Of a stretch of 64,000 nucleotides of DNA, positions 1 through 15,778 are shown in pieces. Below the pieces are notes generated by a model. The model saw only the letters and a list, made by a program, of their open reading frames with translations. It did no database searches and was not told where the DNA came from. Origin of the DNA: Blastococcus aurantiacus (GTDB taxonomy: Bacteria > Actinomycetota > Actinomycetes > Mycobacteriales > Geodermatophilaceae); NCBI RefSeq assembly GCF_900102425.1, contig NZ_FNBT01000001.1, positions 124,001 through 188,000 of the forward strand, read 5' to 3'. The position numbers were made by a program, and so were the translations under genes. Every line of letters starts with the position of its first letter. The stretch's first letter is position 1.

Positions 1-1
1 G

Positions 2-490: not shown

Positions 491-504
491 CTCCGGACGG
501 ACGA

Positions 505-546
505 CCGCGGCCGAGCCGACCGGGGATCCGGTCCGCTCGGCCGCGG
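505..546. terminator. Long composite hairpin, bidirectional terminator
   Basis: Perfect 12-bp outer arms (505-516 and 535-546) enclose a second perfect 6-bp stem (518-523/528-533) with a GGAT loop and a single C-C mismatch between the two. It sits between convergent stop codons (490 on plus, 570 on minus), so it can serve both transcripts. There is no T-tract, as is usual in high-GC actinobacteria. Confidence 0.75.
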
Positions 547-569
547 GACGTCCTGCGACCTGCTGGGGA

Positions 570-1601
570 TCAGGCGGGCGCCGTGGCCAGCTCCCGGTTC
601 CCCTCGGGGGCCTGCTCCCCCACCAGCGGGAAGTGACAGGCGACGAACTGGCCTGTCGCGACCTCGCGCATCTGCGGCTCCTCCAGCTCGCACCGCTCCG
701 CCGCACGAGGGCAGCGGGTGCGGAAGCGGCACCCCGACGGCGGGTTGACCGGCGAGGGCAGCTCACCGGTCAGGCCTGCGTCGGTGTGCTTGGCCTCCGG
801 GTCGGGCTCGGGGATCGAGGCCAGCAGCGCGGCCGTGTAGGGGTGCGCCGGGTGCGCGTACAGGGTGTCCGACGGCGCGACCTCGCAGATCTTCCCGAGG
901 TACATGACCGCCACCCGGTCGCTGATGTTCTTCACCACGGCCAGGTCGTGGGCGATGAACACCATCGTGAGGTTGTACTCGGCCTTGAGGTCCTCGAGCA
1001 GGTTGAGGATCTGCGCCTGCACGGAGACGTCCAGGGCCGACACCGGCTCGTCGCAGATGAGCACCTCCGGCCGCATGATCAGCGACCGCGCGATCGAGAC
1101 GCGCTGGCACTGACCACCGGAGAGCTCGTGCGGACGACGTCCGCCGGCCCGGTCGGGGTCCAGGCCGACCGCTGCGAGGAGTTCCTCCACGCGGGGGTCG
1201 TCGCTGCCCTTGCCCTCCCAGATGGACAGGCCCTCGGCCACGATGTCCTTCACCCGGCGCCGTGGGTTCAGCGACGAGATCGGGTCCTGGTAGATCATCT
1301 GCAGCTTCGTGCGACTGCGCCGGAGCTCGTCGGCGGACAGGGAGCTCAGGTCCTTGCCGTCGAACAGGACCTCGCCACTGGTCGGCCGGGGCGCCTGCAT
1401 GATCGCCCGCCCGGTCGTCGACTTACCACATCCGGACTCCCCGACCAGGCCCAGCGTCTCGCCCTTGGCGATGTCGAAGCTGATGCCCGAGACGGCGTGG
1501 ACCTTCTGCCCCCGCTCCAGCGGGAACTCGACCACCAGCCCTTCGACGCGAAGGACGATGTCGTCCTGGTCCCGCAGGTGCGCGGTACCACTGCCGGCCA
1601 T
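570..1601 (-). CDS. Oligopeptide/dipeptide ABC transporter ATP-binding protein (OppF/DppF type)
   Basis: Cytoplasmic ATPase, one of the two that power an oligopeptide-type importer. With the ATG at 1601 it has 343 residues, the family's usual size. Walker A GESGCGKS is at about 54-61, the signature LSGGQ at about 160-164 (followed by CQR where QQR is commoner), and Walker B LICDEP at about 181-186. The C-terminus has the Cys-containing FRTRCPRAAERC segment typical of the OppD/F extension. The start overlaps the stop of the upstream ATPase gene by 1 base (ATG at 1601, TGA ending at 1601), which indicates translational coupling; longer readings to 1820 only shadow the neighbour. It is the last gene of the operon. 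Confidence 0.95.
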   Translation of the reverse strand: MAGSGTAHLRDQDDIVLRVEGLVVEFPLERGQKVHAVSGISFDIAKGETLGLVGESGCGKSTTGRAIMQAPRPTSGEVLFDGKDLSSLSADELRRSRTKLQMIYQDPISSLNPRRRVKDIVAEGLSIWEGKGSDDPRVEELLAAVGLDPDRAGGRRPHELSGGQCQRVSIARSLIMRPEVLICDEPVSALDVSVQAQILNLLEDLKAEYNLTMVFIAHDLAVVKNISDRVAVMYLGKICEVAPSDTLYAHPAHPYTAALLASIPEPDPEAKHTDAGLTGELPSPVNPPSGCRFRTRCPRAAERCELEEPQMREVATGQFVACHFPLVGEQAPEGNRELATAPA

Positions 1602-2707
1602 CAGGCTGCTCCTGCCGTTGCGATCGCTGTGCTGCTGTCCAGGGGGGTCCCGGCGGCGGTGCGCCCGGCGGCCAGGTTGCGCGCGAGCGCGTCCTGACCG
1701 GCCGTCGTCCCCACCGGGAAGTGGCAGGCCGCCTCGTGCCCGGCGGCGTGCGGCGCGAGCACCGGCGTCTCCGTCAGGCACTTGTCCTGCGCGTAGTTGC
1801 ACCGGGGCGCGAACGGGCACCCGGGCCCCGGGTCCACCAGGTCCGGCGGCCGGCCCGGGATCGCGGCCAGTCTGGTGTGGCTGGGCTGGTGCAGTCGCGG
1901 GATCGACTTGAGCAGACCCTCCGTGTACGGCATCCGGGTGCGGGCGAACAGCTCACGGGTGGGCGCCCGCTCGACGATCCGTCCCGCGTACATGACCGCG
2001 ATCTCGTCCGCGCGACCGGCGACGACGCCGAGGTCGTGGGTGATGATGATCAGCCCCATGTTCCGCTCGTGCTGCTGGGTCTCCAGCAGGTCGAGGATCT
2101 GACGCTGGACGGTGACGTCCAGAGCCGTCGTCGGCTCGTCGGCGACCAGGAGCTTGGGGCCGCAGGCGAGCGCGATCGCGATCGTCACGCGCTGCCGCAT
2201 ACCGCCCGACAGCTGGTGCGGGTACTCACCCAGCCGCCGCTCGGCCGCCGGGATCCCGACGGACTTGAGGAGGTCGACGGCGTGCGCCTTGGCGACCTTG
2301 CCCTTCTCGCCCAGGTGGATGCCCAGGGACTCGGTGATCTGATCGCCGATCTTGGTGACCGGGTTCAGCGAGGTCATCGGGTCCTGCAGGATCATCGCCA
2401 TCTCGGCGCCCCAGATGGTGCGCATCTCCTTGTTCTTCATGGTCGTGAGCTCACGACCCTCGAAGCGCACGGAGCCCTCGCGGATGGTGTTGTTCTTCGG
2501 CAGCAGGTTCATGATCGACCGCGAGAGCACGGTCTTGCCCGAGCCGGACTCCCCCACGATGCCGAGCGTCTTGCCGCGGTCCACCCGGAGGGAGACGCCG
2601 TCGACCGCCTTCACCACGCCACGCGGGGTGTCGAAGTAGGTACGCAGGTCGTCGACTTCGAGCAGCGGCTCGTTGCCTCGGCCGTCCAGCGGCCGCGCGG
2701 TCGTCAC
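1601..2707 (-). CDS. Oligopeptide/dipeptide ABC transporter ATP-binding protein (OppD/DppD type)
   Basis: Second ATPase of the importer, 368 residues. Walker A GESGSGKT is at 52-59, signature LSGGM at 166-170 and Walker B LLVADEP at 186-192. A C-terminal oligopeptide-transporter extension has Cys residues (PFAPRCNYAQDKC), as in OppD proteins. The start is GTG at 2707, with GGGAG six bases before it, and it overlaps the permease stop by 4 bases. It forms the nucleotide-binding pair with the next gene. The C-terminal tail beyond the Cys segment is Ala/Thr-rich and somewhat longer than usual. Confidence 0.95.
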   Translation of the reverse strand: MTTARPLDGRGNEPLLEVDDLRTYFDTPRGVVKAVDGVSLRVDRGKTLGIVGESGSGKTVLSRSIMNLLPKNNTIREGSVRFEGRELTTMKNKEMRTIWGAEMAMILQDPMTSLNPVTKIGDQITESLGIHLGEKGKVAKAHAVDLLKSVGIPAAERRLGEYPHQLSGGMRQRVTIAIALACGPKLLVADEPTTALDVTVQRQILDLLETQQHERNMGLIIITHDLGVVAGRADEIAVMYAGRIVERAPTRELFARTRMPYTEGLLKSIPRLHQPSHTRLAAIPGRPPDLVDPGPGCPFAPRCNYAQDKCLTETPVLAPHAAGHEAACHFPVGTTAGQDALARNLAAGRTAAGTPLDSSTAIATAGAA

Positions 2708-3639
2708 AGGTTGCTCCCTCGGACGTCGAAGCGGGTGCGGAGCGCGTCGCCGACAAGGTTCAGCGACAGCACGGTGAGGAACATGGCGATCGACGGGATG
2801 AGCACGACGTGGGGGGCCTCGTTGAGGTAGCGCTTGCCGTCGAAGATCATCCCGCCCCAGGTCGGGGCCGGCTGCTGGACGCTGAGCCCGAGGAAGGCCA
2901 GCGTCCCCTCCAGCACGATCACCACGCCCATGGCCACCAGGCCGAACGCGGCCACGGGCAGCACCACGTTGGGCAGGATCTCCCGGGCGAGCACCCGGGA
3001 GTTCTTGGCGCCCATCGTCCGCGAGGCCCGGACGAACTCCCGCTCGGCGACGGCGAGCGTCGTCGCCCGCGCCACACGGGTGTAGATCGGGATCGACAGG
3101 AACCCGACGATCAGCGAGATGACGACCAGGCTGCGGCCGACGAAGGCCAGCAGGACCAGCAGCAGCACCAGGGCCGGGAAGGCCAGGATGATGTTGATGA
3201 TCGTCATCAGGATCGTCTCGGTCTTGCCGCGGAAGAAGCCCGAGATGATGCCGAGGAAGCCGCCCACGACCATGCCGATGGCGACCGCCGTGACGCTGAT
3301 CGTGACCGAGACCCGAGCACCGTGGACCAGCCGGGCCAGGGTGTCACGCCCCAGGCCGTCGGTGCCCAGCAGACCTGCTTCTCCGGGCAGCGCCAGCTTG
3401 TTGATGACGTCCGGCGTCAGCGGGTCCCTGACCGGCAGCAGATTGGCGAAGACGGCGCAGATGAGCACCACCACCAGCCAGACCGTCGCCATCCAGAACG
3501 TCAGGCCGTAGCCACGCTTCTTCTTCTTGCCGGGCGCCGCGGCGACCTCGGTGGTCTCCGCGATCAGCCCGTCGGAGACCGCCAGCTCGGACGTCGCCCC
3601 TGGGTGGGGAGCGCCGAGGTTCGGAACGGGGGTGCTCAT
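2704..3639 (-). CDS. ABC transporter permease (OppC/DppC type)
   Basis: Inner-membrane permease of 311 residues. A hydrophilic N-terminus with a KKKKR patch is followed by about six membrane segments. The EAA-type cytoplasmic loop (ASRTMGAKNSRVLAREILPN) that docks on the ATPases is visible. The motif GTDGLGRD after the first membrane segment is typical of OppC/DppC. ATG start with GGGAG four bases before it. It lies 42 bases downstream of its partner permease and overlaps the ATPase gene after it, so it is mid-operon. Confidence 0.95.
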   Translation of the reverse strand: MSTPVPNLGAPHPGATSELAVSDGLIAETTEVAAAPGKKKKRGYGLTFWMATVWLVVVLICAVFANLLPVRDPLTPDVINKLALPGEAGLLGTDGLGRDTLARLVHGARVSVTISVTAVAIGMVVGGFLGIISGFFRGKTETILMTIINIILAFPALVLLLVLLAFVGRSLVVISLIVGFLSIPIYTRVARATTLAVAEREFVRASRTMGAKNSRVLAREILPNVVLPVAAFGLVAMGVVIVLEGTLAFLGLSVQQPAPTWGGMIFDGKRYLNEAPHVVLIPSIAMFLTVLSLNLVGDALRTRFDVRGSNL

Positions 3640-3681
3640 GCTTCTCCCTGTGCGGTCGAGCGGTGCACGGCGGGCGGGGGA

Positions 3682-4641
3682 TCAGACTCTTGCCGCAGAG
3701 CGTCCATGCGAGATCCTCGGGTCCAGGTACGAGTACAGGATGTCGACGGTGAAGTTCACGACGACGTAGCTGACGGCGATCACCAGCGCGACGCCCTGGA
3801 CCATGAGCAGGTCGCGGACCAGCACCGCCTCCAGGAGGAGGCGGCCGACGCCCGGCAGGGCGAACAGCGTCTCGATGACCACCGAGCCGCCGATGATCGC
3901 CCCGACCTGCACGCCCGCGACCGTCATCAGCGAGAACGACGACGGGCGGAGGGCGTGCCGGAACAGGATGCGCCGGTTGGAGACGCCCTTGACGCGGGCC
4001 ATGGTCACGAAGTCCTGCTGGAGCGTCCCGATCATGTCGGTGCGGAGCAGCCGGGTGTAGACCGCCATCTCCGCGATCGCCAGCGACAGCGCCGGCAGCA
4101 ACGCCGACCGGAGGTTCTGCACCGGGTTGTCGGTGAAGTTCACCCAGCCCGTGGCGGGCAGGACGCCCAGCCACACGGCGAAGATCAGGATCAGGAAGAT
4201 CGCCACCATGAAGTTCGGCACCGCGAGGAGGCCGAAGCTCGTGCTGCTGATCAGCTTGTCGGTCCGCGTGCCGGCCCGGTAGGCCGACAGCATCCCGACC
4301 GGGATCGCGACGAGCAGCGCGATGATGATCGCCAGGATCCCGATCTCGGCGGTGACCGGCAGCCGGTCGATGATGGCCTCGCTGACCGGCTCGTTCGTCC
4401 GGTAGGAGCGACCGAAGTCGCCGGTCAGCGCGTCACCGATCCAGTGCAGGTAGCGCACCGGCAGCGGGTCGTCCAGGCCGAGGTCGGCGCGGACGGCCGC
4501 GATGGCTTCGGGCGTCGCGTTCTCGGCTCCCAGGATCTGCAGCGCCGGGTCACCGGGCAGCAGGCTGGTCATCAGGAAGGTCAGCAGCGACACCGCGAAC
4601 AGGGTCGCGAGCAGCGACGGGAGCCTGCGGAGTACGTACAC
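3682..4641 (-). CDS. ABC transporter permease (OppB/DppB type)
   Basis: 319-residue inner-membrane permease, partner of the OppC-type protein. The N-terminal RRLPSLLATLFAVSLLTF helix, the PGDPA segment and the EAA loop (ARVKGVSNRRILFRHALRPS) are characteristic of DppB/OppB. About six membrane segments are seen. The start is GTG at 4641; a GGAG overlapping the end of the upstream binding-protein gene provides the ribosome site. Only 6 bases separate it from that gene, so binding protein 1 and the membrane core are co-transcribed. Confidence 0.95.
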   Translation of the reverse strand: MYVLRRLPSLLATLFAVSLLTFLMTSLLPGDPALQILGAENATPEAIAAVRADLGLDDPLPVRYLHWIGDALTGDFGRSYRTNEPVSEAIIDRLPVTAEIGILAIIIALLVAIPVGMLSAYRAGTRTDKLISSTSFGLLAVPNFMVAIFLILIFAVWLGVLPATGWVNFTDNPVQNLRSALLPALSLAIAEMAVYTRLLRTDMIGTLQQDFVTMARVKGVSNRRILFRHALRPSSFSLMTVAGVQVGAIIGGSVVIETLFALPGVGRLLLEAVLVRDLLMVQGVALVIAVSYVVVNFTVDILYSYLDPRISHGRSAARV

Positions 4642-4647
4642 GGGCGG

Positions 4648-6324
4648 TTACTCCGTCGTCCAGACGTGGCCCCACATGACCTGGGCGCTGGCAGCACCGT
4701 TCCCCTTGGTGTCGTCGGGGAAGACCCAGCCGTCCAGGTTGCGCACCACGTCACGGGCAGCCATGACGGTGAGCGTGCCACCGCTGTAGGTGTTCGGGAC
4801 GTTCTCGTTGAGGACCTCGCCGATGGCCTCGACCGCAGCCTTGCGCTCCTCGACGTCGGTCGTGGTGCGCAGGATCTCGAGCTGCTCGTCGATCTCGGGG
4901 CTCTGGAAGGCCGTCATGTTCAGCGGCCCCTCCGTGAACGCCTGGCTGAACACGATGTAGGGGTCGCGGTCGGCCCCGACGCGGGTGCAGCCCATGTCGT
5001 AGTCACGGGCGAGCATGTCCTGGATCCAGGCCGCCTGCTCCTTCTGCTCCAGCTCGACCTCGGCACCCAGGACGTTGAAGAAGGCCTGGTAGAGCTGCGA
5101 CAGCTCGTTGAGGCTCGGGTCCGGCGGGCAGGTGAAGGTGAAGGAGATGGGGCTGCCGACCGGCTTGCCGTCGGAACGATCCGGGTCGTTGATGTACTCG
5201 TCGTACAGCTCCTGGGCCTTCTCCACGTTGTGCTCGGGGTAGGACTCCTCGAGCTTCTCGGAGTAGTAGGGGCTGTCCGGGCTGAAGAACTGGGTCTGCA
5301 GCGGGGTGACGCCGGCGCCGCCGAGGACCTCGATCAGGGCCTCCTGGTCCATGGCGTGGGCCAGGGCCTGGCGGACGCGGACGTCGTCGAAGGGCGGCCG
5401 GCTGACGTTCATCGTCGAACCGCCGGAGTTGCTGCCCAGGTGCTCGAAGTTGGTGACGCCGTCCAGCTCGCGCGCCTTGATGACGGTGCTCTGACGCAGC
5501 GACTGCATGACGTCGATGTCACCGCTCTGCAGGCTGGAGAGGCGGGTGTCCTCGTCGGGGATCGGCCGGAAGGTGATCTTGTCCAGGTGGGGCAGACCCT
5601 CCTGCCAGTAGTTCTCGTTCTTCTCGAGCTCGAGGCGGCTGTCCCGCTGCCAGGAGACGAACTTGAACGGGCCGGTGCCGACCGGGTTCGCGCCGGCGTC
5701 GGGGCCGGCGGCAGCAGCGGCGGTCGGCGAGAACGGCCAGCCGGCAGCGGCCACCAGGTTGTCCGGGAACGCCGCGTTGGTCTCCTTGAGGCGGTAGACG
5801 ACGGTGAGGTCGTCCACCACGTCCAGGGACGTCACGTCGGCGACGGAGGCGGCGACGTTCGAACCAGGCCTGGTCAGGTACTCGTCGAAGATCGTCTTCA
5901 GCGCCTGGGCGTTGAGCGGGGTGCCGTCGTGGAACTGCACGTCCGGGCGGAGCTTGAGCGTCCACTCCGACAGGTCGGCGTTCGGCTCCATCGACTCGGC
6001 CAGGTAGGGCTCCACGGCCCCGTCCTCGGTGCGGTGCATCAGCGGGTCGTACAGCGCGTAGGCGACGTTGACGCCGGGCTGGTTGAACGTGCCCTCACCC
6101 GGCAGCCAGCTGTTGGTCTCGGCCTCCAGGCCGACGGTGATCTCGCCGCCCTCGACCGGGTCGCCGGCCTCGACGGTCTCGGACTGGGCGCCGGCCTCCA
6201 CGTCCCCGTTGCCGTCGTCGCCGCCTCCGCCGCAGGCGGCGGTCCCCAGGAGGAGACCCACGAGGCCCACGGAAGCGAGGGCCCGCTTCCACGGACCTCT
6301 CATCGGGCGCCGATGTACTCGCAT
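4648..6324 (-). CDS. ABC transporter substrate-binding lipoprotein, family 5 (array copy 1, operonic)
   Basis: 558-residue extracytoplasmic solute-binding lipoprotein of the peptide/nickel (SBP_bac_5) family. It captures the substrate and delivers it to the permeases encoded just downstream. A basic N-terminus and hydrophobic core end in a lipobox with Cys at about 31 (LGTAAC). Conserved landmarks include YLAESMEPNADLSEWTLKLR, FHDGTPLNAQALK and NPVGTGPFKFVSWQR. The ATG at 6324 is chosen because GGAG lies seven bases upstream; frames reaching further upstream lack such a site. It is first in the operon with two permeases and two ATPases. By eye it is about 80% identical to copy 3 over the C-terminal half. 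Substrate not predictable. Confidence 0.94.
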   Translation of the reverse strand: MRVHRRPMRGPWKRALASVGLVGLLLGTAACGGGGDDGNGDVEAGAQSETVEAGDPVEGGEITVGLEAETNSWLPGEGTFNQPGVNVAYALYDPLMHRTEDGAVEPYLAESMEPNADLSEWTLKLRPDVQFHDGTPLNAQALKTIFDEYLTRPGSNVAASVADVTSLDVVDDLTVVYRLKETNAAFPDNLVAAAGWPFSPTAAAAAGPDAGANPVGTGPFKFVSWQRDSRLELEKNENYWQEGLPHLDKITFRPIPDEDTRLSSLQSGDIDVMQSLRQSTVIKARELDGVTNFEHLGSNSGGSTMNVSRPPFDDVRVRQALAHAMDQEALIEVLGGAGVTPLQTQFFSPDSPYYSEKLEESYPEHNVEKAQELYDEYINDPDRSDGKPVGSPISFTFTCPPDPSLNELSQLYQAFFNVLGAEVELEQKEQAAWIQDMLARDYDMGCTRVGADRDPYIVFSQAFTEGPLNMTAFQSPEIDEQLEILRTTTDVEERKAAVEAIGEVLNENVPNTYSGGTLTVMAARDVVRNLDGWVFPDDTKGNGAASAQVMWGHVWTTE

Positions 6325-6428
6325 GTATTTACTCCTTGACCAGTTTCGTGCCGGCACAGCGACGAGGCCGGCGAAGGCGCGTCGATGTGCGAGCGCCCAC
6401 AGCGCGTGCTGGGAGTCTGTCCTACGGG

Positions 6429-6444
6429 AGTGGGCTGCGTCACT
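6429..6444 (-). promoter_or_regulatory. 16-bp palindromic operator-like site, binding-protein copy 1
   Basis: Minus-strand sequence AGTGACGCAGCCCACT, centred on dyad symmetry with AGTG/CACT ends. It lies 105 bp upstream of the start codon. Equivalent palindromes occur at 103-106 bp before all four array genes. Confidence 0.6.
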
Positions 6445-6475
6445 AGGCGCCTCGCCACTCTCACCGGGCGCCGGA

Positions 6476-6494
6476 CTATGCGGTGCGCACAACG
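6476..6494 (-). promoter_or_regulatory. Conserved upstream block shared with copy 4
   Basis: A 19-base stretch reading CTATGCGGTGCGCACAACG on the plus strand recurs at 12230-12248 with one mismatch, on the far side of the 16-bp palindrome in both places. A weaker relative (TGTGCGGACCGC on the minus strand) occurs before copy 3. It could be an upstream activator site or the remains of the duplicated promoter unit. Confidence 0.45.
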
Positions 6495-6522
6495 CCGTCC
6501 CGGCCCCTGATCGGTGCAGGTC

Positions 6523-6552
6523 GGTGCGGTGGCCCGGCCGGGCCACCGCACC
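6523..6552 (-). terminator. Perfect 30-bp palindrome, terminator of binding-protein copy 2
   Basis: Two perfect 15-bp arms with no loop, centred at 6537/6538, lie 12 bases past the stop of copy 2. The next gene on this strand begins 200 bp further on, so copy 2 is probably monocistronic. Confidence 0.75.
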
Positions 6553-6563
6553 GCCGCGGACCG

Positions 6564-8252
6564 CTACCCGGCCAGCCAGGCGTGGCCCCACATGACCTGT
6601 GCGCTGGCCGCGCCGTTGCCCCTGGTGCCGTCCGGGAAGACCCAGCCGTCCAGGTTCTTCACCTGGTCCTGGGCAGCCATGACGGTGAGCGTCCCGCCGC
6701 TGAAGGTGTTGGGCACGTTCTCGTTGATGACCAGGCCGATCTCCTCCACGGCCGCCTTCCGCTCGTCGATGTCCGTGGTCGTCCGGAGGATGTCGAGCTG
6801 CTCGTCGATCTCCGGGCTCTGGAACGCCGTCATGTTGAGCGGGCCCTCGGTGAAGGCCGCGTTGAAGACGATGTAGGGGTCGCTGTCCGCCCCGACGCGG
6901 GTGCAGCCGGTGTCGTAGTCCCGGGCGAGCATCTTCTGGATCCAGGTGGCCTGCTCGACCTGCTCCAGCTCGACCTGCGCACCGAGGGCGCCGTAGAGCG
7001 ACTGCACCAGCTGCGCGACCTCGTTGAGGCTGGGGTCCGGGGGGCAGCTGTAGGTGAAGGAGAGGTCGGTACCGACCGGCAGCCCGTCGGAGCGCTCCGG
7101 GTCGTTGACGTAGTCGTCGTAGAACTTCTGGGCCTTGTCCGGGTCGTACGCCGGGTAGCTGTCGGCGACCTTCTCCGAGTAGTACGGGCTGTCCTCGCTG
7201 AAGAACTGGGTCGTCGGCGGGGTGACGCCCTTGCCGCCGAGCACCTCGATGATCGCCTCCTGGTTCAGGGCATGCGCCAGAGCCTTGCGCACCCGGACGT
7301 CGTCGAAGGGCGGCTTGCTGGTGTTGACCGTCCCGCCACCGGAGTTGCTGCCCAGGTGCTCGTAGTTGTCGATGCCGTCGAGGTCGCGGGCCCGGATGAC
7401 GGTGCTCTGCCGCAGGCTCTGCATCACGTCGATGTCGCCGCTCTGCAGGCTGGCCAGGCGGGTGTCCTCGTCCGGCATCGGGCGGAAGGTGATGCGGTCG
7501 AGGTGCGGCAGCCCCTCCTGCCAGTAGTCCTCGTTCTTCTCGACCACCAGCTGGCTGTCCCGCTGCCAGCTGACGAACCGGAAGGGGCCGGTGCCGACGG
7601 GGTTCGCGCCGGCGTCCTCACCGGCGGCGGCCGCCGCCGTCGGCGAGAACGGCCAGCCCGGCGAGGAGATGAGCAGGACGGGGAAGGCGGCGTTCGCCTC
7701 GACCAGCCGGTAGACGACGGTGAGGTCGTCGACGACGTCCAGCGAGGTGACCTCGTCGACCGACGCCGCCGTGTTCGCCCCGGGAGCGGTGAGGTACTCG
7801 TCGAAGATCGTCTTCAAGGCCTGGGCGTTCAGCGGCGTGCCGTCGTGGAACGTCACGCCGGGGCGCAGCGTCAGCGTCCACTCGGTGAGGTCGGCGTTGG
7901 GTTCCATCGACTCGGCGAGGTACGGCTCGACGTCACCGTCGGCCGTGCGGTGCATCAGCGGGTCGTAGATCGCGTAGGCGACGTTGATCCCGGGCTGGTT
8001 GAACGTCCCCTCCCCCGGGAGCCAGCTGCTGGTCTCGGCCTCCAGGCCCACGGTGATCTCGCCGCCGTCGACCGGATCACCCCGGTCCGAGACGTCGTTG
8101 ACCGCGCCGACCTCGGTGCCGCCGTCCCCGTCACCGTCCCCGTCGTCGCCCCCGCCGCCACAGGCGGCGCTCCCGAGCAGCAGACCCACCAGCCCGGCGG
8201 AGACGACGGCCCGCCTCCACGGACCTCCCACCGGGCGCCGACGTCCTCGCAT
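6564..8252 (-). CDS. ABC transporter substrate-binding lipoprotein, family 5 (array copy 2)
   Basis: 562-residue SBP_bac_5 lipoprotein, paralogous to its neighbours and lacking its own permease genes. The N-terminus mirrors copy 1 (RRPVGGPWRRAVVSAG), with the lipobox Cys at about 31 (LGSAAC) followed by a Gly/Asp linker. The conserved core (FHDGTPLNAQALK, NPVGTGPFRFVSWQR, CPPDPSLNE, GCTRVGADSDPYIVF) is intact, so it should fold and bind ligand. Its own operator-like palindrome and terminator make it a separate transcription unit. It probably feeds the single permease core encoded by the copy-1 operon. A different ligand preference is possible: the ligand-contacting half differs, for example GGKGVTPPTTQFF against GGAGVTPLQTQFF. 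Confidence 0.93.
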   Translation of the reverse strand: MRGRRRPVGGPWRRAVVSAGLVGLLLGSAACGGGGDDGDGDGDGGTEVGAVNDVSDRGDPVDGGEITVGLEAETSSWLPGEGTFNQPGINVAYAIYDPLMHRTADGDVEPYLAESMEPNADLTEWTLTLRPGVTFHDGTPLNAQALKTIFDEYLTAPGANTAASVDEVTSLDVVDDLTVVYRLVEANAAFPVLLISSPGWPFSPTAAAAAGEDAGANPVGTGPFRFVSWQRDSQLVVEKNEDYWQEGLPHLDRITFRPMPDEDTRLASLQSGDIDVMQSLRQSTVIRARDLDGIDNYEHLGSNSGGGTVNTSKPPFDDVRVRKALAHALNQEAIIEVLGGKGVTPPTTQFFSEDSPYYSEKVADSYPAYDPDKAQKFYDDYVNDPERSDGLPVGTDLSFTYSCPPDPSLNEVAQLVQSLYGALGAQVELEQVEQATWIQKMLARDYDTGCTRVGADSDPYIVFNAAFTEGPLNMTAFQSPEIDEQLDILRTTTDIDERKAAVEEIGLVINENVPNTFSGGTLTVMAAQDQVKNLDGWVFPDGTRGNGAASAQVMWGHAWLAG

Positions 8253-8355
8253 GCGTTCTTCTCCCCGACCGAAGGTGCGTGCCGCACGACGGCGACCATC
8301 CGCCGGCGCGTCGACCCGCGCGCGCCAGCGCGCGCCGTCGGAGTGTGGCCCATGG

Positions 8356-8371
8356 AGTGAGCCACGTCACT
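8356..8371 (-). promoter_or_regulatory. 16-bp palindromic operator-like site, binding-protein copy 2
   Basis: Minus-strand AGTGACGTGGCTCACT: arms AGTGA/TCACT around six bases, 104 bp before the start of copy 2. Confidence 0.6.
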
Positions 8372-8429
8372 ACCCGTCGCCGCGGGTCCACCACCTGTGC
8401 GCCGCGCGCGACTCGCGCCGGACAGCACG

Positions 8430-8460
8430 ACGGCCCGGGCGAGGTGCTCGCCCGGGCCGT
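8430..8460 (-). terminator. 14-bp perfect stem, terminator of binding-protein copy 3
   Basis: Arms 8430-8443 and 8447-8460 pair perfectly around a 3-base loop. It starts 19 bases beyond the stop of copy 3. The stem core CGGCCCGGGC is the same as in the copy-4 terminator, consistent with duplication of gene plus terminator. Confidence 0.8.
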
Positions 8461-8479
8461 GGTGGTGGTGCCGATCAGA

Positions 8480-10156
8480 TCAGTCGGTGACCCACACGTG
8501 GCCCCACATGATCTGCGCGTTGTTCGCGCCGTTGCCCTCCGCGCCGTCGGGGAAGACCCAGCCGTCCAGGTTCTTCACCGCGTCACGGGTGGCCATGACG
8601 GTGAGCGTGCCGGCCGAGAAGGTGTTGGGCACGTTCTCGTTGAGGACCTCGCCGATGGCCTCGACCGCCGCCTTGCGGGCGTCGATGTCGGTCGTCGTCT
8701 TGAGGATCTCCAGCTGCTCGTCGATCTCCGGGCTCTGGAACGCCGTCATGTTGAGCGGGTTCTCCTGGAACGCCTGGCTGAACACGATGTACGGGTCGCG
8801 GTCGGCACCGACACGGGTGCAGCCGGCCTCGTAGTCCCGGGCCAGCATGTCCTGGATCCAGGCCGCCTGCTCGGTCTGCTGGAGCTCGACCTCGGCGCCC
8901 AGCGCGTTGAAGAACGCCTGGTAGAGCTGCGACAGCTCGTTGAGGCTCGGGTCCGGCGGGCACTGGAAGGTGAACGAGATGGGCTCGCCCACCGACTTCC
9001 CGTCGGAGCGCTCCGGGTCGTTGATGTAGTCGTCGTAGAGCTCCTGGGCCCGCTCCACGTCGAACTTCGGGTAGCTCTCCTCGAGCTTCTCCGAGTAGTA
9101 CGGGCTGTCCGGGCTGAAGAACTGGGTCTGCGGCGGCGTGACACCGGCACCGCCCAGGACCTCGATCAGCGCGTTCTGGTCCATGGCGTGCGCCATGGCC
9201 TGGCGGACCCGGACGTCGTCGAACGGCGGACGACTGGTGTTCATCGTCATGCCACCCGAGTTGCTGCCCAGGTGCTCGTAGTTGCTCACGCCGTCCAGCT
9301 CGCGGGCGCGCACGACGGTGCTCTGCCGGAGCGACTGCATGACGTCGATGTCGGCGGTCTGCAGGCTGGACAGGCGGGTGTCCTCGTCGGGGATCGGGCG
9401 GAACGTGATCTTGTCCAGGTGGGGAAGCCCCTCCTGCCAGTAGTTCTCGTTCTTCTCCACGACGAGGTTGCTGTCGCGCTGCCAGCTGACGAACGTGAAC
9501 GGTCCGGTCCCGACCGGGTTCGCACCGGCGTCCTCACCAGCGGCCGCGGCCGCGGTGGGCGAGAACGGCCAGCCGGCCGCGGTGACGAGCTCGTCGGGGA
9601 AGGCCGAGTTGGGCGCCGTCAGGCGGTAGACGACGGTGAGGTCGTCGACGACGTCCAGCGAGGTGACCTGGGCCAGGCTGGCGGCCAGCCGCGAGTCCGG
9701 CGCCGTGAGGTACTCGTCGAAGATCGTCTTGAGCGCCTGGGCGTTCAGCGGGGTGCCGTCGTGGAACTGCACGTCCGGGCGGAGCTTGAGGGTCCACTCG
9801 GAGAGCTCGGCGTTCGGCTCCATGGACTCGGCCAGGTAGGGCTCGACCGACCCGTCCGCGGTGCGGTGCATCAGCGGGTCGTAGATCGCGTAGGCGACGT
9901 TCGTCCCCGGCTGGTTGAAGGTGCCCTCGTTGGGCAGCCAGCTGTTCGTCTCGGCCTCCAGGCCGACGGTGATCTCGCCGCCCTCGACCGGGTCGCCGGC
10001 CTCGCCGACGTCGCTGACCGCGCCGGCCTCGGCGTCGCCGTTGCTGTCCGAGCCGCCGCCACCGCAGGCGGCGGTGCCCAGCAGGAGACCCGCGATGCCC
10101 GCGGAGACGAGCGCGCGCTTCCACGGGCCCCTCATCGGGCGCCGGTGTTGTTGCAT
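8480..10156 (-). CDS. ABC transporter substrate-binding lipoprotein, family 5 (array copy 3)
   Basis: 558-residue lipoprotein, exactly the length of copies 1 and 4. The N-terminus has the segment RRPMRGPWKRAL, shared with copy 1, and the lipobox Cys at about 31 (LGTAAC). The C-terminal half is near-identical to copy 1 (SPYYSEKLEESYP, SLNELSQLYQAFFN, AAWIQDMLARDY), making copies 1 and 3 the closest pair by eye. The ATG at 10156 is supported by GAGGGG seven bases upstream; the longer open frame to 10357 has no such site and reads low-complexity sequence. It is a single-gene unit with its own operator-like palindrome and hairpin terminator. Confidence 0.94.
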   Translation of the reverse strand: MQQHRRPMRGPWKRALVSAGIAGLLLGTAACGGGGSDSNGDAEAGAVSDVGEAGDPVEGGEITVGLEAETNSWLPNEGTFNQPGTNVAYAIYDPLMHRTADGSVEPYLAESMEPNAELSEWTLKLRPDVQFHDGTPLNAQALKTIFDEYLTAPDSRLAASLAQVTSLDVVDDLTVVYRLTAPNSAFPDELVTAAGWPFSPTAAAAAGEDAGANPVGTGPFTFVSWQRDSNLVVEKNENYWQEGLPHLDKITFRPIPDEDTRLSSLQTADIDVMQSLRQSTVVRARELDGVSNYEHLGSNSGGMTMNTSRPPFDDVRVRQAMAHAMDQNALIEVLGGAGVTPPQTQFFSPDSPYYSEKLEESYPKFDVERAQELYDDYINDPERSDGKSVGEPISFTFQCPPDPSLNELSQLYQAFFNALGAEVELQQTEQAAWIQDMLARDYEAGCTRVGADRDPYIVFSQAFQENPLNMTAFQSPEIDEQLEILKTTTDIDARKAAVEAIGEVLNENVPNTFSAGTLTVMATRDAVKNLDGWVFPDGAEGNGANNAQIMWGHVWVTD

Positions 10157-10261
10157 GTGTGTACCCCTCGACCATGTGCTCGTGGCACCTCGACGCCGGC
10201 CCTGGAGAGGGCGCGCCGGGGCGCGGGCGCACGGAGCGCCCGGTCGAAGTCTCCCCGCGGG

Positions 10262-10277
10262 AATGCGGAGAGTCATT
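10262..10277 (-). promoter_or_regulatory. 16-bp palindromic operator-like site, binding-protein copy 3
   Basis: Minus-strand AATGACTCTCCGCATT: arms AATG/CATT, 106 bp before the start of copy 3. It is the most degenerate of the four, but keeps the TGAC core and the position. Confidence 0.5.
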
Positions 10278-10357
10278 GGGCGGGCCGCCACCGTCACGGA
10301 GGGTGAGACCCGGCGGTCCGCACAGCGGGGTCGGTGTGCTAGCCGGGCACAGCACAA

Positions 10358-10385
10358 CGGCCCGGGCGGTGATCCACCCGGGCCG
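10358..10385 (-). terminator. Hairpin terminator of binding-protein copy 4
   Basis: 12-bp arms (10358-10369 and 10374-10385) with one mismatch around a 4-base loop, 18 bases past the stop of copy 4. It shares the CGGCCCGGG core with the copy-3 terminator. Confidence 0.72.
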
Positions 10386-10403
10386 CTGTACGCGTGCGCA
10401 GTG

Positions 10404-12080
10404 CTACTCCGTGCTCCAGACGTGGCCCCACATCGCGGTGCCGTCAGGCGTTCCGTTGCCCTCGCTGCCGTCCGGGAAGACCCAGCCGTCGACGTTCTTG
10501 ATCACGTCGCGGACCGCGACGACCGTGAGGGTGCCGCCGGTGAACGTGACCGGCACCTGCTCGGCGATCACGAGGCTGATCTGCTCGGCCGCCGCCTTGC
10601 GCTCCTCGACGTCGGTCGAGCCGCGCATGGTGGCCAGGGCCTCGTCGATCCTGGGGTCCGTGAACTCCGTCACGTTGGGCACGCCGGTGGTGAAGGCGCG
10701 CTGGAAGACGTAGTACGGGTCACGGGCGGCGCCGTGCCGGGTGCAGCCGGCGTCGTAGTCCCGGGCGACGGCCTGCGAGGTGTAGGCCGCCTGCTCCACC
10801 TGCTCGAGCTCCACCTGCATCCCGAGCCCGTTCCAGAAGGACTGGTACAGCTGGGACAGCTCGTTCAGGCTCGGGTCGGGCGGGCACTTGTAGGTGAAGG
10901 TGACCGGCTCCCCGACCGCCTTGCCGTCGCTGCGCTGGGGGTCGTTGATGTACTCGTCGTACAGCTCCTGCGCCTCGTCGGGCCGGTTCGTCGGCCAGGC
11001 CTCGGCCGCCTTCTCCGAGTAGAACGGGTCCTCCGGGCCGAAGAACTGGGTCGACGGCGGGGTGAGCCCGGTGCCGCCCAGCACCTCGATCAGCGCGTCC
11101 TGGTCCAGGGCGAGGGCCAGCGCCTTGCGCACCCGGAGGTCGTCGAACGGCGGCCGGGAGGTGTTGAAGTTCGACCCGCCGCTGTTGTTGCCGAGGAACT
11201 CGTAGTTGTCCACGCCCTCGACATCCCGGGCGCGGGACACCGTGCTCTGCCGCAGGGACTGCATCGCGTCGATGTCACCGCTCTGGAGGCTGGACAGGCG
11301 GGTGTCCTCGTCGGGGATCGGACGGAACGTGATCTTGTCCAGGTGCGGCAGACCCGGCTGCCAGTAGTCCTCGTTCTTCTCCACGACCAGCTGGCTGTCC
11401 CGCTGCCAGCTGACGAACTTGAACGGGCCGGTGCCGACCGGCTCGGAACCGGCGTCGGCACCCGCCGCCGCCGCGGCGGTCGGCGAGAACGGCCAGCCGG
11501 CCGGGTCCGTGAGCAGGTCAGGGAAGGCCGCGTTGGGCGCCTTCAGGGTGTACGTGACGGTGAGGTCGTCGACGACGTCCACCGACTGCACCTCGGCGAG
11601 GTTGGCCGCCAGGTTGGAGCCCGGCGCCACGAGGTAGTTGTCCCAGATCGTCTTGATGGCCTCGGCGTTCAGCGGCGTGCCGTCGTGGAACTGCACGTCG
11701 GGACGCAGCGTGAGCGTCCACACGGTGAGGTCCTCGTTCGGCTCCATCGACTCGGCCAGGTACGGCTCCGGCTCACCCTCGGGCGTCCGCTTCATCAGCG
11801 GGTCGTAGATGGAGTAGGCCACGTTGTATCCGGGGTTGCCGAAGTTCGCGGTCCCGGGCAGCCAGCTGTTCGTCTCGGCCTCGAGGCCGACGACGATCTC
11901 GCCGCCGTCGACCGGGTCGCCGGCCTCCGAGGCGTCGACGACGGCACCTTCCCCGCCGCCACCGTCCCCGTCGTCGGAACCGCAGGCCGCCGTCGCCATC
12001 AGCAGGCCCACGATGCCCGCGGAGACCACGGCCCGACCTGTCCGGCGCCACCTGCCCACCGGATGCGAATGACTGCGCAT
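10404..12080 (-). CDS. ABC transporter substrate-binding lipoprotein, family 5 (array copy 4, most divergent)
   Basis: 558-residue SBP_bac_5 lipoprotein. The signal segment ends at a lipobox Cys at about 33 (MATAAC), followed by an acidic Gly linker. Core motifs are kept (YLAESMEPNEDLTVWTLTLR, EPVGTGPFKFVSWQR, CPPDPSLNE), but many ligand-side positions differ: GLTPPSTQFFGPEDPFYSEK replaces the SPDSPYYSEK form, and GCTRHGAARDPYYVF replaces GCTRVGADRDPYIVF. It is therefore the oldest or most specialised copy. The ATG at 12080 has GAGGGG five bases before it. It lies next to the PucR-type regulator in the same orientation, with a 223-bp promoter region between, and has its own terminator. Confidence 0.93.
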   Translation of the reverse strand: MRSHSHPVGRWRRTGRAVVSAGIVGLLMATAACGSDDGDGGGGEGAVVDASEAGDPVDGGEIVVGLEAETNSWLPGTANFGNPGYNVAYSIYDPLMKRTPEGEPEPYLAESMEPNEDLTVWTLTLRPDVQFHDGTPLNAEAIKTIWDNYLVAPGSNLAANLAEVQSVDVVDDLTVTYTLKAPNAAFPDLLTDPAGWPFSPTAAAAAGADAGSEPVGTGPFKFVSWQRDSQLVVEKNEDYWQPGLPHLDKITFRPIPDEDTRLSSLQSGDIDAMQSLRQSTVSRARDVEGVDNYEFLGNNSGGSNFNTSRPPFDDLRVRKALALALDQDALIEVLGGTGLTPPSTQFFGPEDPFYSEKAAEAWPTNRPDEAQELYDEYINDPQRSDGKAVGEPVTFTYKCPPDPSLNELSQLYQSFWNGLGMQVELEQVEQAAYTSQAVARDYDAGCTRHGAARDPYYVFQRAFTTGVPNVTEFTDPRIDEALATMRGSTDVEERKAAAEQISLVIAEQVPVTFTGGTLTVVAVRDVIKNVDGWVFPDGSEGNGTPDGTAMWGHVWSTE

Positions 12081-12182
12081 GTCCACCCCTCGACGTTGCT
12101 CGTCAGCAGGGGCACCGGGCGCGCGAGCGGCCGCCCCCTGCTGTTTGCGCTCTCCGCGCTGTCGGGAAGTGTCCTCCATCAC

Positions 12183-12198
12183 AGTGACTGGAGTCACT
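12183..12198 (-). promoter_or_regulatory. 16-bp palindromic operator-like site, binding-protein copy 4 (best dyad)
   Basis: Minus-strand AGTGACTCCAGTCACT: perfect 7-bp arms around CC, 103 bp before the start codon. A further GTGA-N2-TCAC dyad (12203-12212) sits next to it, so this promoter may hold two bound dimers. This is the clearest member of the four-site set. Confidence 0.65.
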
Positions 12199-12229
12199 AG
12201 ACGTGATGTCACTGTCACAAGGGCTCCGG

Positions 12230-12248
12230 CTATGCGGAGCGCACAACG
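12230..12248 (-). promoter_or_regulatory. Conserved upstream block shared with copy 1
   Basis: 19 bases matching 6476-6494 with one mismatch, at nearly the same distance outward from the palindrome. Read on the minus strand it begins CGTTGTGCGC, so it could contain a -35-like TTGTGC. No clear -10 follows it. Confidence 0.45.
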
Positions 12249-12303
12249 GCGGGCCGCGAGCCGGGCGGATAGTCCCCGCGCAGTCGGGATCCGGGGGCCC
12301 CGG

Positions 12304-13575
12304 TCAGGCGCTGCCGGCGTCCCCGAGCACCGAGGGCTCCAGCAGCCGCAACGCCTCGACGGCGACGAACAGGCGCGCGACGCTGCGCGGGTCCTCCAGC
12401 GACTGGCCGCTGAGCTGCTCCAGTCGGGCGAGCCGGTTGCGCACCGTGTTGCGGTGGCAGAACAGCAGCCGGCCGGTCTCGGTGGAGTTGCCGTTGGTGG
12501 CCAGCCAGGTGGCCAGCGTGGCCAGCAGCGTCTGCTGCTCCGGCTCCGGCAGCTCCATGACGGCACCGAGCAGAAGGCGGGAGACCTCCGTCGAGGTCTC
12601 GACCGACGAGGCCAGCAGCGCCGCCACCGGGTCGTCGTCGATCGCCGTCACGCCCACGGCCCCGGCCGGCAGGCACCGGCGGGCCACCATGGCGCGGGCC
12701 ACGGCGACGGAGGTCTGCAGCGCGTCGGCATAGGAACGGCTGAGCCCCACGCGCCCCGTCGCCAGGGTGCCCAGCAGTTCGCGGATGGAGGTGACGGTCC
12801 GCCACTCCCCGATCGCCACGATGCCGACCGTGCCGTCCAGGGTGGTCCGCCAGGCGGAGCGGACCCCGTGACCGGCCAGGAAGTCCTCGGCGCCGGCGAG
12901 CGCGGGGCGGCCGGCGGCGTCCTGCTCGGCGGAGACCGCGACGTAAGGGCCCTCCTCGGGCAGGCCGAGCCGGGTCAGACTGCCGCCGAGGCGCGACCAC
13001 TCCCCCAGCCGCCCGTCGACGAGGGCGTCGAGCAGGAGGCGTCGTCGTTCGCGGTCGGCGTCGGTGAGGGCGGTGAGCCCCTCGTCGTACCCGGTGGCCA
13101 GTGCTCGGGACTGCTCGTCGAGGACCGTCCAGAGCGCTCCGGACTGCTCGAGGAAGACGGTCGTCTCCGCGGGGGTCCGCGCGGCTGCGCGCGCGGCCAG
13201 CTCCCGCCAGAGGACGGAGGCCGCCGAGCGCAGCCCGCGGAGGGCGACGGGCAGCGGGATGTTCTGCTCGGCGCGGCGCCGGCCGACCGTCGCGCACCCG
13301 GCGTCGCCGGCCGGGACCGTGGACCGGTCTCTCGACAGCCGGTCGAGCGTGGCATCGAGGTGGGCGGCGACGTCGGTGGTCAGTTCCCCGGCCCCGAGGC
13401 GCCGGTAGGCCGGCTCCTCGGCCCGCAGGCGCTCGCTGACCTCACCGGCCAGCGCGGTCAGGTCCGCGTCGAGGAGCTCCGCGGCGATCGCCGCCAGCAC
13501 CGGCGGGTGGGCACCGTCGCCGGGACGCCGGGGCGCGCACGGCCGCGCCCGGTCGCACTCGTTCGGCTCGGGCAC
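12304..13575 (-). CDS. PucR-family transcriptional regulator
   Basis: Predicted DNA-binding regulator of about 423 residues. The C-terminal 70 residues contain the PucR-type helix-turn-helix (LATWLATNGNSTETGRLLF, then HRNTVRNRLARLEQLSG). The middle has a GGDEF-like sensory fold as in PucR/CdaR proteins (GPYVAVSAEQD, TVGIVAIGEW). The N-terminal 150 residues are helical. The start is set at GTG 13575 because GGAGG precedes it by four bases; an open frame to 13686 reads Pro/Arg-rich sequence across the promoter region. It lies directly upstream of the four binding-protein genes and divergent from the acyl-CoA dehydrogenase. It is the natural candidate for binding the shared palindrome, though this is inference. 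Confidence 0.88.
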   Translation of the reverse strand: MPEPNECDRARPCAPRRPGDGAHPPVLAAIAAELLDADLTALAGEVSERLRAEEPAYRRLGAGELTTDVAAHLDATLDRLSRDRSTVPAGDAGCATVGRRRAEQNIPLPVALRGLRSAASVLWRELAARAAARTPAETTVFLEQSGALWTVLDEQSRALATGYDEGLTALTDADRERRRLLLDALVDGRLGEWSRLGGSLTRLGLPEEGPYVAVSAEQDAAGRPALAGAEDFLAGHGVRSAWRTTLDGTVGIVAIGEWRTVTSIRELLGTLATGRVGLSRSYADALQTSVAVARAMVARRCLPAGAVGVTAIDDDPVAALLASSVETSTEVSRLLLGAVMELPEPEQQTLLATLATWLATNGNSTETGRLLFCHRNTVRNRLARLEQLSGQSLEDPRSVARLFVAVEALRLLEPSVLGDAGSA

Positions 13576-13704
13576 TGCGCCTCCGGTGGTCTGCGCGCCC
13601 CGCGGGCGGGCGGGTGGGACGACGGTGGACGTCCGAGTGTTCCCCGGACGGAGTCCTCCGCGGGCGGCGGGTGCGGCGGACGGCAAGAGCGATTAGTTAG
13701 AGCC

Positions 13705-13732
13705 TTGCACTTTTCCAGGGGAGCACTAGGTT
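13705..13732 (+). promoter_or_regulatory. Vegetative-type promoter of the acyl-CoA dehydrogenase gene
   Basis: TTGCAC (13705-13710), 16-base spacer, TAGGTT (13727-13732), in an AT-rich patch that stands out from its surroundings and ends 30 bases before the start codon. Confidence 0.5.
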
Positions 13733-13762
13733 CGGGAGACCCGAGCGCCCGAAGGAGTGCGT

Positions 13763-15076
13763 ATGGCCATCGAGACCACCACGGCCGAACAACTGGACAC
13801 CCCGAGTCAGGTCCGCAGCGCCGTCAAGGCGTTCATCGACGAGCACTGGGACCCTTCGGTGTCGCTCAAGGACTGGCTGGGCAAGCTGGCCGACTCCGGC
13901 TGGGCGGTGCCGCAGTGGCCTGCGCAGTGGTACGGCAAGGGGCTGACCAACGACCTGGCCGCCGAGGCCTACGACGAGTTCAAGAAGATCAACGCCGTCG
14001 GACCGCCGCCCGGCCTGTCGCGCATGCTCGCTGCGCCCACGATCATCTCCCACGGCACCGACGAGCAGCGGACCGCCTACATCCGGCGGATCCTCGTCGG
14101 CGAGGACGCCTGGTGCCAGCTGTTCAGCGAGCCCGGTGCGGGTTCCGACCTGGCCGCGCTGCAGACGAAGGCCGAGCTGGACGGTGACGAGTACGTCGTC
14201 AACGGCCAGAAGGTCTGGACGTCGGGCGCCATGGGTTCCGACGTCGGCATGCTGATCGCCCGCACCGACCCGGACGCCGTCAAGCACGCCGGCATCACGT
14301 ACTTCGCCATCGAGATGGACCAGCCGGGCATCGAGGTGCGTCCGCTGCGGCAGATCACCGGCGAGGCGCACTTCGCCGAGGTCTTCCTCACCGACGCCCG
14401 CGTCAGCGCCGACAACATCATCGGTGGCCTGAACAACGGCTGGAACGTCGCCCGGACCACGCTGGCCAACGAGCGCGTCGGCCTGGGTGGTGGCGGCTCC
14501 CTCGGGTTCCCGCTGTCGGCACCCGGTGGCCGTCGCTCCGCGCAGCTCCTCGAGCAGTCCGTCGGGGAGTTCGTCGACTCCCAGAAGCGCCAGGCGTCCG
14601 GCGGTCGCGTGCCCGCCATGATGATGGTCCGCAACGGCGAGGCGCTGGCCAAGATGGCCAAGAACATGGGCCGCGACCAGGACCCCTCCGTGCGCCAGGG
14701 CATCGCCCGGGTGCACGCGCTGACCTCGCTCAACCGCTGGAACACGCTGCGTGCGCGTGCCGCGGTCGAGGCCGGCGGCCGCCCCGGCCCCGAGGCGTCG
14801 CTGGGCAAGCTCATGGTCTCGCGCATCACCCGGATGTCCCGCGACGTCGGCATGGAGATCGCCGGACCGTCGGGCATGCTCGCCGGCGAGGACGGCCCGC
14901 TGAACGGGGCCCTGGCCCTGCAGTTCCTGGGCGCGCCCGCGCCCTCGATCTACGGCGGGTCCGACGAGGTCCAGCACAACATCATCGGTGAGCGGGTGCT
15001 CGGCCTCCCCCGCGAGCCCGACGCGTCGAAGGACGTCCCGTTCCGCTCGCTGCGGACGGGCACCCAGTCGCAGTAG
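13763..15076 (+). CDS. Acyl-CoA dehydrogenase family protein
   Basis: 437-residue FAD-dependent flavoenzyme that introduces a 2,3-double bond in acyl-CoA thioesters (beta-oxidation or related catabolism). Visible family features: QLFSEPGAGSDLAAL (flavin and acyl-CoA contact region), VNGQKVWTSGA, and the C-terminal SIYGGSDEVQHNIIGERVLGLPREP, which matches the closing segment of FadE-type enzymes. ATG at 13763 with GAAGGAG five bases upstream; a GTG two codons earlier lies inside that ribosome site. Monocistronic, with its own promoter and a hairpin after it. The acyl substrate is unknown. Confidence 0.93.
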   Translation: MAIETTTAEQLDTPSQVRSAVKAFIDEHWDPSVSLKDWLGKLADSGWAVPQWPAQWYGKGLTNDLAAEAYDEFKKINAVGPPPGLSRMLAAPTIISHGTDEQRTAYIRRILVGEDAWCQLFSEPGAGSDLAALQTKAELDGDEYVVNGQKVWTSGAMGSDVGMLIARTDPDAVKHAGITYFAIEMDQPGIEVRPLRQITGEAHFAEVFLTDARVSADNIIGGLNNGWNVARTTLANERVGLGGGGSLGFPLSAPGGRRSAQLLEQSVGEFVDSQKRQASGGRVPAMMMVRNGEALAKMAKNMGRDQDPSVRQGIARVHALTSLNRWNTLRARAAVEAGGRPGPEASLGKLMVSRITRMSRDVGMEIAGPSGMLAGEDGPLNGALALQFLGAPAPSIYGGSDEVQHNIIGERVLGLPREPDASKDVPFRSLRTGTQSQ

Positions 15077-15090
15077 GCACACCGCACGGA

Positions 15091-15140
15091 CACGGGGACC
15101 CGTGGTGCGCCCCGCGAGGGGTGGACCACGGGTCTCCGTG
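15091..15140. terminator. Bidirectional hairpin between convergent genes
   Basis: 16-bp arms (15091-15106 and 15125-15140) with one mismatch around an 18-base loop, between the acyl-CoA dehydrogenase stop (15076) and the minus-strand stop at 15159. Confidence 0.7.
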
Positions 15141-15158
15141 CTTTCGTGGGAGGGCGGC

Positions 15159-15704
15159 TCAGGTGTCCGCGGCGTCGCTGGCGGCCTGCGGCCGGCCGCC
15201 GAACACGTCGGCGGCGACCTCGCGGCGGGCCTCGGCCAGCCAGGTGTGCTGGTCGTCGGCCTGGTCGATGAGCCGCTCGAACAGCGCGGCGTCGACGCGG
15301 GTGTCGACCTCGCCGAGCGCGCGCAGCGTCTCGAACCCCGCCCGCTTGGCGAGCACGGCGGTCGCGATGAACTCGAACTCGATGAGGTCGCTCAGCGGTG
15401 ACCGGGACACCAGCCGCCCGTTGAGCTTGGCCCGCGTCAGCTTCTCCCCCACCCAGGTGGCCAGCTGCTTGTACTGGCGGACCGGCACCCCGAGCGAGGA
15501 CATCGTGGAGCGCAGGCCCGCGCGCTCCTCGCGCAGCTCGTCCAGCAGCTGCTCGAGCGGCTGCTCGTACGGGGTCCCCCGCCAGCGGCCGATCATCCGG
15601 GTGACCAGCTCGATGCCGCCGGTGGCGGCGGCGAGGTGGTCGTTGCAGTAGACGCCGAGCAACTCGGGGTGACGCAGCGCTCCCCCGGTGGACGACTCGG
15701 ACAC
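15159..15704 (-). CDS. Unrecognised helical protein, ferritin-like pattern
   Basis: 181 residues from GTG 15704, which has AGGAGG four bases before it; a longer frame to 15989 overlaps the neighbour without support. I do not recognise a named family. The protein is almost wholly alpha-helical, with repeated acidic/His positions on four helices: HPELLGVYCNDHLAAATGG, LLDELREERAGL, LIEFEFIATAVLAKRAGFET and LIDQADDQHTWLAEAR. That resembles a four-helix ferritin/tRNA-hydroxylase-type bundle, but the exact diiron ligand set is not demonstrable by eye. No signal peptide or membrane segment. It stands alone between a convergent terminator and a small membrane protein. Confidence 0.75.
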   Translation of the reverse strand: MSESSTGGALRHPELLGVYCNDHLAAATGGIELVTRMIGRWRGTPYEQPLEQLLDELREERAGLRSTMSSLGVPVRQYKQLATWVGEKLTRAKLNGRLVSRSPLSDLIEFEFIATAVLAKRAGFETLRALGEVDTRVDAALFERLIDQADDQHTWLAEARREVAADVFGGRPQAASDAADT

Positions 15705-15778
15705 GGTGCCTCCTGACGACGACGGATTCCCGCCCATTGTCGCCGCCGGGGAGGCGCCCCGCGCGGCGTAGCCGCCGG

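Follow-up and report, generated by a model that had tools for sequence, protein, structure and literature searches.

The solute-binding protein array

The window analysed here is a 64,000-nucleotide stretch of the 4.16 Mb genome of Blastococcus aurantiacus (G000). It holds a gene array located entirely on the minus strand, in which a PucR-type regulator gene is followed by four paralogous genes of family 5 solute-binding proteins (SBPs; SBP1–SBP4 are the four window paralogues), two permease genes and two ATPase genes (Table 1). The regulator carries a C-terminal HTH_30 domain (PF13556, E 6.3e-20, above the curated cut-off) and a GGDEF-like domain (PF17853, 28.7 bits against a cut-off of 24.5), which is a feature of many PucR-family members. 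With its family 5 SBPs, two permeases and two ATPases, the array is like the Opp/Dpp/Nik ABC importers, but unlike these it comes with five to eight SBP paralogues per genome and one linked importer. None of the importer array proteins reaches an NCBIfam equivalog cut-off that would specify the substrate.

Two observations were made at the edges of the array and in a relative. The segment between pucR and a divergent acyl-CoA dehydrogenase gene (13686–13757) is strongly conserved in five genomes and is probably the promoter of the dehydrogenase gene. In the genome G010 (L081:2067–3012 and 11974–13645), two genes, the SBP3 orthologue and that of the second permease, are each matched as two separate pieces, and the array may therefore be decaying there.

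Table 1. Features of the SBP array and its promoters, in window coordinates.
Feature	Position	Strand	Basis or remark
PucR-type regulator gene	12304..13686	-	Pfam HTH_30, GGDEF_2; orthologues; real start perhaps internal to the ORF
SBP4, family 5 solute-binding protein	10404..12080	-	Pfam
SBP3, family 5 solute-binding protein	8480..10156	-	69% identity to SBP4
SBP2, family 5 solute-binding protein	6564..8252	-	Pfam
SBP1, family 5 solute-binding protein	4648..6324	-	Pfam; first before the importer genes
Peptide/nickel-type importer (two permease, two ATPase genes)	570..4641	-	Pfam, NCBIfam
Putative operator before SBP1, AGTGACGCAGCCCACT	6429..6444	-	Pattern match; genome rank 1 in profile search, E 2.0e-12
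Putative operator before SBP2, AGTGACGTGGCTCACT	8356..8371	-	Pattern match; profile E 3.9e-10
Putative operator before SBP3, AATGACTCTCCGCATT, weak palindrome	10262..10277	-	Pattern match; profile E 1.7e-8
Putative operator before SBP4, AGTGACTCCAGTCACT, perfect palindrome	12183..12198	-	Pattern match; profile E 4.0e-6
-10-like box of SBP1, CAGACT	6414..6419	-	Predicted from conserved spacing
-10-like box of SBP2, CACACT	8342..8347	-	Predicted
-10-like box of SBP3, GAGACT	10248..10253	-	Predicted
-10-like box of SBP4, GACACT	12168..12173	-	Predicted
Upstream element of SBP1, TTGTGCG-N3-CGCATAG	6476..6492	-	
Upstream element of SBP4, TTGTGCG-N3-CGCATAG	12230..12246	-	
Upstream element of SBP3, degenerate	10309..10325	-	10/14 specified bases

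A 16-bp site precedes every SBP gene of the window

The initial annotation described one 16-bp palindrome at a nearly fixed distance before all four SBP genes. When recomputed, both the places and the distances came out the same, the sites lying 105, 104, 106 and 103 bp before the ATG codons at 6324, 8252, 10156 and 12080, respectively. The pattern ARTGAC-N6-CAYT has five strand-hits at four places in the window (the SBP4 site, being a perfect palindrome, is counted twice, once per strand), against a mean expectation of 0.10 strand-hits, and at least five hits were obtained in none of 100 shuffles. The motif is thus well above chance. AGTGAC-N4-GTCACT specifies 12 bases, of which the SBP1–SBP4 sites match 10, 11, 8 and 12, which makes the SBP3 site a weak palindrome; a score of at least 10 is reached in the window by the other three sites only.

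Across the whole genome, ARTGAC-N6-CAYT occurs at eight places, five of which precede the five close SBP paralogues (69–70% identical to SBP4). The remaining three fall within mechanically listed ORFs or at an ORF end. The fifth paralogue is encoded on another contig (C13:130841), with its site 102 bp ahead of the start, and the 20 kb examined around it lack counterparts of the importer genes, of pucR and of the genes that flank the window array.

SBP homologues matched at E <= 1e-100 are found in nine of 146 genomes, all of one genus. Six of these genomes hold five to eight copies, and three (G008, G011, G020) hold a single copy of 52–54% identity; these lone copies are included in the 41 matches of the survey, leaving 38 in the six array genomes. 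The motif precedes 37 of the 38 (the miss is G022:C5), counting three degraded sites that were anchored by hand (G001:C12:109642, G010:C2:470004 and G010:C2:474521), and it is absent from the three lone SBPs. In a seventh genome that was not used for training, Blastococcus sp. DSM 44205, all seven SBPs seen, at two loci, have the site. Taken together, 44 of 45 promoters of the SBP family in seven Blastococcus genomes carry it. The closest homologues outside Blastococcus (L203, L204) lack the palindrome. Their SBP upstream regions contain a different one, TTAGCG-N3-CGCTAA, perfect in L204 and weaker in L203, and a TetR-type gene lies just upstream in L203; the closest homologues outside the genus thus seem to use another operator.

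Specificity of the motif

A sequence-only profile was built from 32 training sites, all from the five other array genomes. In G000, the five SBP promoters occupy ranks 1–5 of its matches, the four in the window with the E values given in Table 1 and the unlinked fifth with 0.0015. The next match has E 0.0075, and the best matches of 17 genomes without the array range from 0.005 to 0.23. No further clear target was found among the best 150 of 3,650 first-look candidates in G000. The match at E 0.0075 (C11:232757) was rejected as a target, since its position falls within a predicted ORF and it could not be aligned to the similar-scoring matches in G008 and G001. Two of the training sites themselves score within background (G001:C8, E 0.016; G022:C4, E 0.26). 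Given these scores and the restriction to the best 150 candidates per genome, some weak targets may have been missed and the regulon may extend a little further.

The strict palindrome AGTGAC-N4-GTCACT occurs at six places in 23 genomes of the genus, five of them SBP promoters; G011 has one place. It is also found in 23 genomes outside the genus. A loose composite pattern recovered the SBP promoters together with scattered matches near control level in other genomes and was discarded.

The site is embedded in a putative conserved promoter

Conservation was counted over the 44 sites, with bases numbered from A0 to T15; anchoring on the consensus favours high counts. T2, G3, C12 and A13 are invariant (44/44), and A4 and C5 are nearly so (43/44 each). 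They are followed by A0 (38/44), G1 and C14 (37/44 each, position 1 being A in the remaining seven), T11 (28/44) and T15 (26/44).

The initial annotation held that motif and position are both kept, and this extends to the relatives. The start codon lies 97–110 bp from the site in 33 of 35 genes (36 of the 44 promoters were measured and a start was found in 35) and at 66–67 bp in two genes of G004. Longer values, which had made the distance appear incidental and the leaders widely variable, arose artificially from truncated tblastn matches. A -10-like box is spaced even more tightly: the best such hexamer, by a scoring chosen after the alignment was seen, starts at an offset of 24–25 bases from A0 in 41 of the 44 promoters and is an exact NASACT in 38. 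In three unlinked genes the score chose another hexamer, and a TAGAGAT- or TAGGACT-like sequence is located at about the same place. With such a spacing, GTGAC may double as a -35 box. The two hexamers of a sigma-70 promoter are expected 16–18 bp apart, and a generic promoter scan of 6200–12400 returned no promoters. Two other assignments were rejected: the motif as a -10 box (TAGTGA) has no -35 element at a workable distance, and for a leader RNA there are no Rfam matches in window positions 1–16000.

In our reading, the 16-bp site is an operator integrated into a promoter that these genes have in common, and a protein would bind to it. The original suggestion, a common operator or regulated promoter element for a co-regulated set, is well supported by the unlinked fifth gene, by the 44 of 45 promoters and by the profile trained on other genomes. 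One regulator probably controls the whole SBP family together. In kind this is ordinary, a small regulon's operator-promoter, and the comparative evidence for it is clean. The 44 paralogous promoters amount to an experiment of nature, with one element retained as everything around it drifts, and illustrate how a binding-protein family can grow and disperse without loss of common control.

A PucR-type protein as the candidate reader

Our first choice, held tentatively and at somewhat less than even probability, is that this compact promoter-operator, found at all SBP paralogues, is read by the PucR-type protein encoded upstream of SBP4. Each SBP gene would be headed by one sigma-70-like core, (T)AGTGAC-N6-CACT-N8-9-NASACT, in which the -35 and -10 elements would be GTGAC and NASACT, respectively. 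The 16-bp near-palindrome would double as a dimer operator with half-sites one helical turn apart; the CA mirrored within the spacer would be required by a second protein alone, most likely the PucR-type product of the gene next to SBP4. An operator lying over both the -35 box and the spacer would, when occupied, be expected to stop or gate RNA polymerase at every paralogue, linked or not, and the cell would in this way switch the set of binding proteins feeding one importer. The placement over the -35 box and spacer suggests repression or gating. This effect is uncertain because PucR-family regulators are mostly activators, according to the part of PMC7652997 available to us, and proteins of that kind seldom bind over the -35 box. 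If the assignment is true, a PucR-type protein in Blastococcus gains an operator.

The distribution of the regulator is consistent with this role. At E <= 1e-60, it is found in six of 146 genomes, the same six that hold multi-copy arrays. The gene adjoins SBP4 in all six (a contig end cuts it in one) and is also present in DSM 44205. Among the matches listed from 394 genomes of the class, no other PucR protein exceeds 39% identity. The regulator and the array were probably inherited together, so their co-occurrence does not represent six independent events. Within the genus set searched, the site is found only where the PucR gene is present, leaving aside the one AGTGAC-N4-GTCACT place in G011. 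The proposal of the initial annotation that the PucR-type protein reads the site is therefore plausible from co-occurrence; what weakens it is that similar palindromes precede homologous genes elsewhere without a PucR orthologue. The flanking bases are more particular to the array: A...T flanks are present in five of seven full-core SBP sites and in one of 78 non-SBP GTGAC-N4-GTCAC sites (11 Blastococcus genomes, the latter count obtained by subtraction). Autoregulation of pucR was considered and dropped, as the best score upstream of pucR in five genomes is 7–8 of 12 and no copy of the site was seen. The PucR site could also be another element restricted to the array genomes.

Known PucR-family operators allow for such a site. 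In the excerpts of PMC7652997 that we could consult, they are often but not always inverted repeats, and include inverted repeats of 17–24 bp; in the group of GabR, AdeR, PutR and MabR, several members have inverted repeats, of 17, 21 and 24 bp. Here, a PucR-type gene is adjacent. The recognition helices of MabR are one turn apart (PMC11617747, available to us in part). AGTGAC-N4-GTCACT differs from the operator sequences given in these portions of PMC7652997 and PMC11617747. GabR, in the same partial sources, binds two repeats between -87 and -23, unlike the single site here, and the site of Bacillus subtilis PucR is non-palindromic.

Competing explanations

The main alternative is that the palindrome is a Crp/GlxR-class box, GTG-N8-CAC, through which a global nutrient regulator controls the genes, with PucR acting elsewhere or as an extra layer. 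We consider this a real possibility, if not a probable one, and prefer the PucR-type protein to it narrowly. The core and its spacing are common to the Crp/GlxR boxes of Actinobacteria: 35 of the 44 sites conform to GTG-N8-CAC (nine do not) and 25 to GTGA-N6-TCAC, while the accessible part of PMC10033298 gives NGTG-N8-CACN as the GlxR consensus and GTG-N6-GNCAC for Crp of Streptomyces coelicolor, and that of PMC4117774 gives TGTGA-N6-TCACA as the Escherichia coli CRP site. The remark that the operator had not been described thus holds with a qualification, since its core equals the consensus of GlxR, a Crp-family regulator; an operator assigned to a PucR-type protein in Blastococcus was not found in the open-licence PubMed Central literature. 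GTGAC-N4-GTCAC also appears at 9/10 or 10/10 in six of 29 distant SBP upstream regions (three Acidimicrobiia-type genomes), although the shuffles used there preserve base composition only and understate chance, because the palindrome is over-represented genome-wide. Two of these three genomes, of unstated completeness, have no PucR match at E <= 1e-5, and the third (G149) has one weak stretch of 31% identity. One Acidimicrobiia-type MAG of 3.4 Mb (G148; L282–L295) contains GTGAC-N4-GTCAC 17 times, against one match of the reversed-pattern control. Twelve of its 17 copies are flagged as intergenic, and copies lie near genes for ribonucleotide reductase, a sigma factor and a permease 68% identical to that of the window, which looks like a candidate global regulon. 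In G000, three of five non-SBP copies are flagged likewise. These flags come from crude ORF calls, and the caller put two of the three SBP sites of G148 inside ORFs.

Several features set the site apart from such boxes. Crp sites favour T...A flanks, whereas here the first base is T in one of 44 sites and A15 is seen in four; the TGAC arm is conserved; and the SBP3 orthologues have ATG in place of GTG, an A being present there in seven of the 44 sites. The lone SBPs of G008, G011 and G020 do without the site. Five promoters carry a separate Crp-like TGTG-N8-CAC 30 bp upstream, as picked by a best-of-many search run without a control. Finally, the Blastococcus target set is confined to one gene family in the profile search. 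According to a second alternative, which appears improbable to us, no regulator binds the palindrome, and its sequence simply forms the -35 region of a promoter common to these genes, possibly one used by a specific sigma factor. This would fit the better conservation of the left half-site GTGAC over the right inner bases and the 24–25 bp spacing to NASACT, but C12 and A13, which mirror G3 and T2 across the dyad, never vary despite their position in the spacer, and a promoter alone is an insufficient explanation for this. Least credible by far are functionless leftovers of tandem duplication. Every carrier is indeed a paralogue and most are in tandem arrays, but paralogues with 63–70% protein identity to SBP4 retain the motif amid upstream columns close to background, and unlinked SBP copies keep it too.

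Upstream elements and other palindromes

A further palindrome, the 17-base TTGTGCG-N3-CGCATAG, begins 47–48 bp before the operator in a subset of promoters (Table 1). Its 16-base core, TGTGCG-N3-CGCATAG, has ten matches in 23 genomes of the genus, all in SBP promoters of the six array genomes, and the reversed-pattern control has none. Thus, one promoter core is combined with differing upstream elements. It is conceivable, but in our view doubtful, that a dedicated PucR-type repressor or gate at a new, -35-fused operator before all five to eight family members and class-specific upstream elements (TTGTGCG-N3-CGCATAG at -48, the Crp-like TGTG-N8-CAC at -30) that choose which paralogues are made would together form a combinatorial switchboard of substrate range, kept through tandem duplication and gene movement to unlinked places.

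Sites of the TGTGAA-N4-TTCACA type, which occur in most genomes of the genus, were set aside as a different motif that presumably resembles Rex operators. The one in G000 (L170) is located at the 5' end of a reductase-like ORF.
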